Source: Oscillospiraceae bacterium (GTDB taxonomy: Bacteria; Bacillota; Clostridia; Oscillospirales; Acutalibacteraceae). Taken from it: DNA of 64,000 bases. The translations under genes and the position numbers were made by a program. The stretch lies in NCBI GenBank assembly GCA_009784445.1, contig WRBQ01000004.1:47421-111420 (forward strand), given 5' to 3'. The notes below the pieces were generated by a model. The model did not search any database. It was not told where the DNA came from and was given only the letters and a program-made list of their open reading frames with translations. This document shows, one piece after another, positions 24,444-27,271 of this stretch (positions are counted from its first letter, which is position 1; each line of letters starts with the position of its first letter).

Positions 24444-26021
24444 CTATGAAAAAGTCCAAGCAGATATACCAGCGAAGAGGTTCCCGCGTTGCAGGGCAGC
24501 AGACATGTTCAACCCGTGTGCCGCAACCACCATGCCCATGCGATAACCCAGCGGCACAAAGGGAGCGTCATCCCAGAAGGCTTCGTGAAATTCTGCGGGG
24601 GTCAGTTCGCCCAAACGCAGTTGTGTGTAGGCCGTTGCAGCGTCACCCCAAACGTTGACACCAGCGGTGGCTGCACCGCCATAGCTCAACAATGGCGCAA
24701 GCGAAAGCCCCGGGGTCAGGCGAATTTGCCCAAGATATAAATCAAAGTTGCCGTTGCGCACCGCGCTCTCATAAGCCGCGCGCTCGAGCACAACCAAGTT
24801 AATTTCCACGCCAAAGGCCTGCAACTGTGCGCGAATGCTGCCTGCGGCGTTGACCATGGCGGGATTGTAACGATACACCACCAAGTCAAAGCTGGGATTG
24901 ACCAAACCAGCTGCATCAATGGCTTGGCGCGCTTGCGCAGCATTGAATCCGCGCGTAAATTCCTCGCCCTGCAAGGCATGCCAGTTGTGTGGAAACGGCG
25001 ACTGTGTTGCTTGCGCAAAGGCGGCAAAGCCATCATGCATCACACGCGGCACATCCAATGCTGCGGCAATGGCCGCGCGGGCATCTGCCTGTTGCAGTGC
25101 GCCACGGCGGGAGTTCATGCCCAAAAACACCAGATTAGTCGTGCTCACCCGGTGCGAAGCTGCAGCCACTGCGGGCAGATTGCCAGCGGTTAAGTCATCA
25201 TAGGCAAGATGGTAACTACCAACCTCCACGCCATGCAGCAGCGCGGCTGTTTGGCTTACGCCTTGCAGACGGATGGTGGTGAGCGCGGAAGTTTGCGCAG
25301 GATGCCCTGTGTGATGCGCCAAATAAAACGCGCCATCGTCGTCTTGCACAAGATAGTATGGCCCCGTGCCAGGCGGAGTGTTGTCTAGGGTGAAGTGATG
25401 GCCCGCCACGGCTTGACGCAGCGGCGCAGCACCTGCGCTATTGGCAGGCACAATGGGAAAATCCAAGTTTGCGGCAGCGAACACATCGCCATGGCGCAAG
25501 TTAACTTCCACCTGTCCGTCGCGCACACGCATGCTGGTAATATTCGCAAGCCGTGCGGAGAAATTCGTGCTTGCCTGTGCCCGCCCAAAGGAGTACACCA
25601 CGTCTGCAGCAGTCACTGCGTTGCCGTTGTGGAATTCCCGCTCGCGCAGGGTAATCACCAGCTGCGTGGGCGTGGGTTGTTCAAAGCTTTCGGCCAACAC
25701 TGGTTGCGGATAGTGCGTGTCGTCCGCGGCAAACAGGCCTTCCCACACCAGCGATGCGAGGCTAAGATTGACCTCGGTGGCAGCAAAAAACGGGTTGAGT
25801 ACATCGCGCTGTGCAAAAGGCAGCACAAGGGTGTCAAGCTGCTCGTGCGCAGGTGGAGTGAAATATGGCTCGGTGGGTTCAGGCTCAATGACAGCGGATG
25901 TGCAGGCAAAGAGGAGCAATGCCAACGCCAACGCGCAGGCAAATATTTTGTAGGGGCGCGCATCGCGCGTCCATTTTTGATGGTGCGGACGGCTGATGGC
26001 CGCCCCTACATGGTTTATCAT
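24444..26021 (-). CDS. Family 5 extracellular solute-binding lipoprotein (oligopeptide type) with repeat-encoded N-terminus
   Basis: 525 aa. SBP_bac_5 pattern: PQPVLAESFEQPTPTQLVITLREREFHNGNAVTAADVVYSFGRA, GTGPYYL, and C-terminal FHEAFWDDAPFVPLGYRMG. A lipoprotein signal (ACALALALLLFAC) begins only at about residue 28. Residues 5-24 (VGAAISRPHHQKWTRDARPY) are encoded by a 62-bp palindromic repeat inserted between the start codon and the signal peptide. The only ATG is that of the extension, overlapping the natB stop. Being cotranscribed with an ABC-2 exporter rather than an importer permease is odd. Confidence 0.8.
   Translation of the reverse strand: MINHVGAAISRPHHQKWTRDARPYKIFACALALALLLFACTSAVIEPEPTEPYFTPPAHEQLDTLVLPFAQRDVLNPFFAATEVNLSLASLVWEGLFAADDTHYPQPVLAESFEQPTPTQLVITLREREFHNGNAVTAADVVYSFGRAQASTNFSARLANITSMRVRDGQVEVNLRHGDVFAAANLDFPIVPANSAGAAPLRQAVAGHHFTLDNTPPGTGPYYLVQDDDGAFYLAHHTGHPAQTSALTTIRLQGVSQTAALLHGVEVGSYHLAYDDLTAGNLPAVAAASHRVSTTNLVFLGMNSRRGALQQADARAAIAAALDVPRVMHDGFAAFAQATQSPFPHNWHALQGEEFTRGFNAAQARQAIDAAGLVNPSFDLVVYRYNPAMVNAAGSIRAQLQAFGVEINLVVLERAAYESAVRNGNFDLYLGQIRLTPGLSLAPLLSYGGAATAGVNVWGDAATAYTQLRLGELTPAEFHEAFWDDAPFVPLGYRMGMVVAAHGLNMSAALQRGNLFAGISAWTFS
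25949..26010. repeat. 62-bp palindromic repeat (TGTAGGGGCG ... CGCCCCTACA)
   Basis: Perfect 10-bp terminal inverted repeats with further internal dyads (GCGCGCATCGCGCGTCC / GGACGGCTGATGGC). This class of short palindromic repeat is common between genes in Clostridia. Here it is read through in frame by the solute-binding protein gene. Confidence 0.8.
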
Positions 26022-27271
26022 TTCTTGTTCCCCTTAACCAGTTTGCCCACATCTTTATATTTCAGCCGGCTGCCATAGTGCAGCACCGATGCCGAGTAAA
26101 CTTTGCCCGCAAGCCAGCTAAGCAGCACCACGCTACCAACCAAAATGAGTATTGATGGTAGAACCACGCTAGGGTCAAAGTCATTGTTCAGCAGCACCGT
26201 GGGCGCAGCAAATGGAGCGGTGAAGGGGAACAGCATGACTGCGCGGCCAACTTGCCCGCCACCGGTAATCATGGGGCCAAGGCCGCCAGCGTAAAACGAA
26301 ATCATGGTAATGATTGCTGCAGGTGCGAGTGCGGAGTTAAGATCCTCCAGCTTGCTGACCATTGCGCCAAGCATGGCGTTGATGAGCGCATACAGCGCAT
26401 AACCAGCCAAGAAATATAGCAGCAACAACGGCGCAACCCACAGATTGATGTCGCCCATGCTCATTTCAACGGGTGCATCGGCGCCAGACGTTAGGGCACT
26501 GAGTAGCCCGGCAATGATAATCAGCCCCAGCATTTGCACTAGGCCAACTGAGCCCATTCCAATGACCTTGCCGACCAAAATGCGCGGCGGCTTGGCGCTC
26601 ACAATCAACGTTTCCATCACGCGGGTAGATTTTTCGGTGGCCACGCTCATGGCAACCGATGTGCCGTAACTGTGCACCGACATGAACATAATCATCATCA
26701 AAACAAGCGATGCACCCATGGCCGCAAAACCTGCCTGCCAAACTGGCTCAATCATTACCTCAGACTGTAGAATACTTATGGATACTTCATGATCCACGCC
26801 GGCTTCAACCAGCTGCGCATGCCGAAACTCCATGTTGATTAACGCACCCACACCGTTTGCGGGGAAGCGGCTCATCATGTCGCGCATGATAATTTCAGCG
26901 TGCAAGGTATCATACTCGTTAGCGGTGATGTGCACCACTGCCGCGCCAGCATCTTCGCTGATGGCAACAAGGCTATCCTCCAGCTGTGCGGGCGTGATTT
27001 CCACCACGGTCATGCCCAGATTCTCCAAGCTGTGCCGCACAGGCGCAAGATAATGGCTGCCGCTTTCGTCCAGCAAATAAGCGGTAGCGTTGCTAAACCC
27101 GCCTTCGCCAAAATTCAAATTCATGTCGCCACCGTCCATGCCGCCCACTAGGGGCATGATAATCATCATGCCCAGCAGCATAATCAGGTAAATAATGTTC
27201 GTAATCCAAAACGCGCGTTTGCGCACGGCCTCACGAAAGGTGAAGCGTGCCACTAACCAAGATTGTCTCAT
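26018..27271 (-). CDS. ABC-2 type export permease, NatB-like
   Basis: 417 aa. One N-terminal membrane helix after FREAVRKRAFWITN, a roughly 150-aa extracytoplasmic loop, then five C-terminal helices, as in NatB. The motif STRVMETLIVSAKPPRILVGKVIGMG is characteristic of the NatB/ABC-2 family. The start codon overlaps the natA stop by one base (TAATG) and its stop overlaps the lipoprotein start (ATGA). Exported substrate (Na+ in NatAB) not determinable. Confidence 0.85.
   Translation of the reverse strand: MRQSWLVARFTFREAVRKRAFWITNIIYLIMLLGMMIIMPLVGGMDGGDMNLNFGEGGFSNATAYLLDESGSHYLAPVRHSLENLGMTVVEITPAQLEDSLVAISEDAGAAVVHITANEYDTLHAEIIMRDMMSRFPANGVGALINMEFRHAQLVEAGVDHEVSISILQSEVMIEPVWQAGFAAMGASLVLMMIMFMSVHSYGTSVAMSVATEKSTRVMETLIVSAKPPRILVGKVIGMGSVGLVQMLGLIIIAGLLSALTSGADAPVEMSMGDINLWVAPLLLLYFLAGYALYALINAMLGAMVSKLEDLNSALAPAAIITMISFYAGGLGPMITGGGQVGRAVMLFPFTAPFAAPTVLLNNDFDPSVVLPSILILVGSVVLLSWLAGKVYSASVLHYGSRLKYKDVGKLVKGNKK

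Follow-up and report, generated by a model that had tools for sequence, protein, structure and literature searches.

The lipoprotein gene and the repeat behind its start codon

The window, the whole stretch of 64,000 nucleotides that was analysed, carries on its minus strand a gene (24444..26021) for a family-5 extracellular solute-binding lipoprotein of 525 residues (Pfam PF00496 SBP_bac_5, E 6e-36). The upstream gene of the operon (26018..27271, minus strand) encodes a natB-like ABC-2 permease of 417 residues (Pfam PF12698 ABC2_membrane_3, E 3.5e-25). The two reading frames overlap in an ATGA (26018..26021, minus strand), composed of the lipoprotein start codon at 26019-26021 and the permease stop codon at 26018-26020. 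An AAGGGG ribosome-binding site is located 8 nt before the ATG (26030..26035, minus strand). This ATG is the sole canonical start ahead of the hydrophobic core of the signal.

The N-terminus of the lipoprotein reads MINH-VGAAISRPHHQKWTRDARPY-KIFACALALALLLFAC, where the hydrophobic core and lipobox, as judged from the sequence, correspond to IFACALALALLLFAC (25902..25946, minus strand). The probable lipidated cysteine is C40, which occupies the same place in the orthologues of two sister species, G001 (LVLAAC), an Oscillospiraceae bacterium, and G003 (LVLVAC). A pseudogene reading of the lipoprotein is ruled out by the intact frame of 525 codons and a dN/dS of about 0.09.

Between the ATG and the lipoprotein signal lies a 62-bp element (25949..26010), bounded by TGTAGGGGCG and CGCCCCTACA. 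Its ends form perfect 10-bp terminal inverted repeats, and the whole arms, of 24 nt, are 79% complementary. The element is in frame and supplies residues 5-24 of the translated protein (25950..26009, minus strand). The original prediction had described such an element between the only ATG and the signal, adding VGAAISRPHHQKWTRDARPY before the core; every detail that we checked holds, and the translation of the open reading frame bears out the added peptide.

The element is composed of two GTAG-tagged hairpins, inverted with their GTAG ends outward, whose arms match a genome-wide 23-nt consensus. Arm A (25950..25972, plus strand), GTAG-GGGCGCGC-ATC-GCGCGTCC, has an 8-bp stem and a 3-nt loop, and differs from its consensus, GTAG-GGGCGCGC-ATT-GCGCGTCC, by one loop change. 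As RNA it has a predicted fold of -13.5 kcal/mol, with a weaker one for its complement. A spacer of 14 nt (25973..25986) separates it from arm B (25987..26009, minus strand), GTAG-GGGCGGCC-ATC-AGCCGTCC, which shows two changes from the consensus GTAG-GGGCGGCC-ATT-GGCCGTCC, of which one disrupts the top pair of the stem. Owing to a G.T stem pair, the GTAG strand folds better than its complement.

Both arms have the unpaired GTAG at the 5' foot of the palindrome that is a trait of the GTAG superfamily, and the 8-bp stem with its 3-nt loop falls within the 6-13 bp stem and short loop of that group, with one broken pair in arm B. The GTAG foot, the short G+C-rich stem and a loop of 2-3 nt are shared with the GTAG-tagged REPs described by Di Nocera in 2013 (PMC3733652). 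Palindromic repeats in frame within many protein genes are also a feature of the Rickettsia palindromic elements, as cited in PMC3733652; those of the RPE-4 and RPE-6 type are CGTC-tagged, with no dedicated transposase known for CGTC repeats, whereas the elements studied here are GTAG-tagged and associated with RAYTs in relatives. The tag of the window copy is GTAG and not CGTC. A classical transposon with a single terminal-repeat pair is ruled out, as each arm is a GTAG hairpin in its own right and the spacer between them varies. We consider it very likely that these 62 bp form a GTAG-superfamily REP doublet (REPIN/BIME), present as a copy after the lipoprotein start codon, where its insertion is tolerated.

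The repeat family and its putative transposases

In the window, the element at 25949-26010 is the only copy. In the host genome (G000; assembly of 2.0 Mb, 86% complete), a search allowing up to two mismatches finds the extended half-site GTAGGGGCGNNCATCNNNCGTCC 96 times and a reversed control pattern once, so the element is not a product of chance. The stretches around each repeat contain 127 REP-like arms, which group into 69 clusters; 51 clusters have two arms. Forty-seven of these 51 are inverted with GTAG outward, the arrangement of REPIN doublets, and the spacers of inverted pairs range from 0 to 58 nt. The two-arm clusters (loci L081-L120 and the window) are A/B heterodimers in 39 of 51 cases, and the remainder include other REP types; among the 51, no A/A or B/B pair was found.

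Prevalence of inverted pairs, dispersal, frequent location at gene ends and occasional in-frame location inside genes are all known from GTAG REPs and REPINs (PMC3733652; Bertels and Rainey 2011, PMC3116915). Pairing of unlike arms is also known from the BIMEs of E. coli, where y goes with z1 or z2 (PMC8266576). Compared with these known GTAG REPs, REPINs and BIMEs, the host clusters differ in their near-strict A/B pairing, without A/A or B/B. The phyla listed in the 2013 survey of GTAG REPs do not include the host group, Oscillospiraceae of the Bacillota (PMC3733652).

RAYT-type Y1 transposase genes are present in several relatives. Inverted REPs flank two of them on contig C11 of G001 as well as those of G003; these REPs, of the GTAGGGGCGAGCTTTGCTCGTCC type (GTAGGGACG type in G003), share their outer stem with arms A and B. 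In G041, a member of a different family within the order, we find 76 + 71 = 147 exact A/B-type half-sites, and the coding sequence of its RAYT (L127:1483-1971) itself includes two in-frame A arms (VGARIARP, GRAMRAPT). Two RAYTs of G001 also hold in-frame REPs. Inverted GTAG REPs on both sides of a Y1-type transposase are known from RAYT/TnpA-REP REPtrons, in particular those of subclass 2.4 (Quentin 2018, PMC6006769), which the enzymes of the relatives resemble in this. REPs in frame within tnpAREP genes, as in G041 and G001, are a published feature of that subclass (PMC6006769, 2018).

The host differs from such REPtrons in that the cognate RAYT of the A/B pairs is not found in the 86%-complete assembly. 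The sole RAYT detected there (C21:25384-25773; L128:1432-1899) is flanked by hairpins of a kind other than GTAGGGG, and the cognate enzyme is therefore missing or unassembled. Mobilisation of the A/B pairs by a RAYT is thus deduced from the arrangement in relatives, and the element would be a non-autonomous GTAG unit spread by these single-strand HuH transposases. A full-text literature search found no paper on RAYTs and repetitive extragenic palindromes in Firmicutes, although such papers may exist.

The A/B pair is abundant in the host and in G041, which belong to different families, and absent from the closest sister species tested. This distribution suggests horizontal spread or differential loss.

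The lipoprotein site in sister species

The lipoprotein gene of G003 has no REP at this site: it starts at the same ATGA and its N-terminus reads MRMHNAEINRRWVRALVIALVLSLVLVAC. In G001 the same overlap is found with a GTG start (GTGA), and the n-region is encoded by two other REPs in the opposite arrangement, also in frame: MRKFCRSGGVIATPTDADYPQCCKKTQPVGAAITPPGLRIFACLIIIALVLAAC. The overlap with natB is therefore maintained with the host REP, with a different REP pair and with no REP at all. The insertion in the host is deduced from these sister species, a same-species empty-site allele not having been seen.

The lipoprotein gene is under purifying selection, with dN/dS of 0.088 between the host and G001 and 0.106 between the host and G003, and the REP-bearing genes of the host and G001 are both intact. 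Of the 46 arm positions of the window copy, 3 depart from consensus, against a dS of about 0.96 between the host and G001, so this copy is probably younger than the split of the two species. Exact A/B arms were not found in G001, G003, G006, G010 or G012. Given the low arm divergence and the lack of exact A/B arms in G001 and G003, the host and G001 were probably struck independently, or REPs were replaced at one older site. Inheritance of one identical insertion by both is judged unlikely, as the two species have REPs of different types at the site and G001, like the four other genomes just named, lacks exact A/B arms.

The original prediction held the start codon to be fixed by the overlap with natB and proposed a comparison with orthologues lacking the insert; the ATGA of G003 and the GTG of G001 at the same overlap agree with it. 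The start is thus fixed by the neighbouring gene together with the sister species, and translation very probably runs through the REP. A peptide covering VGAAISRPHHQK ahead of the core would mark such translation.

Most NH2-terminal REPs have been argued to be extragenic, their apparent coding location resulting from misannotation (PMC3733652), and a miaB-like copy in the host (L101) looks like such a misannotated N-terminal case with an extragenic REP. Were the same true of the lipoprotein, the REP would be an untranslated leader, with initiation downstream of it. We looked for such starts, for example at a TTG in the signal, and found none that is usable. In the host, the downstream TTG codons sit within the core, and initiation there leaves MALALLLFAC, without a positive n-region; in G001, downstream TTG or GTG starts leave only a few residues ahead of the cysteine. 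In addition, a good ribosome-binding site (AAGGGG in the host and in G001, AAGGGA in G003) and the natB overlap are kept in three species, the REP-free one included. An untranslated leader is accordingly a highly improbable reading.

In-frame repeats in other genes and the possible effect of the insertion

Most of the 69 clusters of the host lie between predicted genes or at their ends, and about 10 are in frame inside genes. The 'intergenic repeat' of the original prediction thus describes the majority of copies and fails for several. In-frame REPs with coding signal around them are found in dnaE, polC, mutS, mutL, priA, rnmV, glmM, feoB, which has two single arms, and a beta-lactamase-family gene.

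In the host, the in-frame REPs of dnaE, polC, mutS, mutL and priA are located in loci L081, L085, L102 and L114 (contigs C1, C17 and C32).

The REP is absent at the same site in priA of G001 and G009 and in mutS of G001, G002 and G009. In G003, this variable linker of priA holds a different insert sequence, and one REP-like arm is present at some other point of the locus. The loop of glmM, the phosphoglucosamine mutase gene, encodes VGAAIGRPSLAESTDAQCAPLH in the host and a different REP peptide, PQPVGADANPP, in G001 (L142, L143). The glmM and mutS sequences were aligned by MAFFT, leaving out the wrong-frame ORF rows L145 (glmM) and L151 (mutS).

These copies bear on the claim that the palindrome was recruited as the N-terminus of the lipoprotein. 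The host and G001 have differing REP pairs at this position, and in either species these encode a VGAAI-type peptide whose basic residues precede the core, as would fit a functional, positively charged n-region that alters targeting. However, G003 and more distant orthologues have ordinary short n-regions, and the same peptide occurs in cytosolic PriA, MutS and GlmM. Recurrence at one site is not specific to signal peptides either, since the glmM loop also has a different REP in G001. Recruitment therefore has very little chance of being correct, and the gain of function that the word implies is unsupported. Since unrelated proteins contain in-frame copies of these elements as well, a tolerated insertion appears to be the best reading.

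Long n-regions are often tolerated by signal peptides. The extension, whose net charge is about +3 to +4, is followed by an intact core and cysteine, and both repeat-carrying species show purifying selection (dN/dS 0.088), so export of the lipoprotein is probably preserved. The original prediction, right on the in-frame coding, thus went too far on recruitment and in expecting an effect on export.

The hairpins might instead act as RNA, tuning lipoprotein expression or mRNA stability in the translationally coupled pair, with the peptide incidental. A hairpin is predicted in the mRNA about 11 nt past the start codon, leaving the ribosome-binding site mostly open, with a predicted mean unpaired value of 0.65 against 0.49 when the element is removed (one calculation on single sequences). 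A large hairpin is predicted in G001 too, and REPs are held to influence mRNA stability in other bacteria (PMC3733652). Against such a role, G003 does without the REP, and the predicted difference in folding comes from that one calculation. Moreover, across many unrelated sites in the host we found no common REP position relative to start codons. An RNA role is unlikely, with a modest chance of being right.

Under the tolerated-insertion reading, a copy would have landed directly after the start codon of the lipoprotein gene. It could have survived because the frame is kept, that phase contains no stop, and the n-region is a site only loosely constrained in length and sequence. The REP-encoded peptide would have no function of its own, and the extended lipoprotein would be exported normally.

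The lipoprotein case is real, and it is part of a known phenomenon, the same palindromes being in frame in many other host genes. Earlier work warned that such cases are mostly misannotated; this gene provides a clear instance of an N-terminal REP that is very probably translated. It also documents a GTAG REP population in Oscillospiraceae.

Replication or mismatch repair accounts for five of the nine REP-bearing genes. If such genes made up about 4% of the coding length, which is an assumed share, the chance of finding at least five among nine would be near 1e-5. The sample is a small one, and the nine genes were identified by the codon-usage calls of this analysis. A lean of in-frame REPs towards genes of replication and repair was reported for other phyla in 2013 (PMC3733652). 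We treat the lean seen here as a lead, and it offers a second, phylogenetically distant sample of a pattern unexplained since then. There is a small chance that a few tolerant coding sites (the lipoprotein n-region, the GlmM loop) are colonised time and again by REPINs of this clade, with REP types that differ between species, and that the REPINs are concentrated within genes of replication and repair (dnaE, polC, mutS, mutL, priA). If this were true, the recurrence at sites and the concentration in certain genes would point to a targeting rule, or else to a host effect linked to the genes concerned, and not to neutral scatter.
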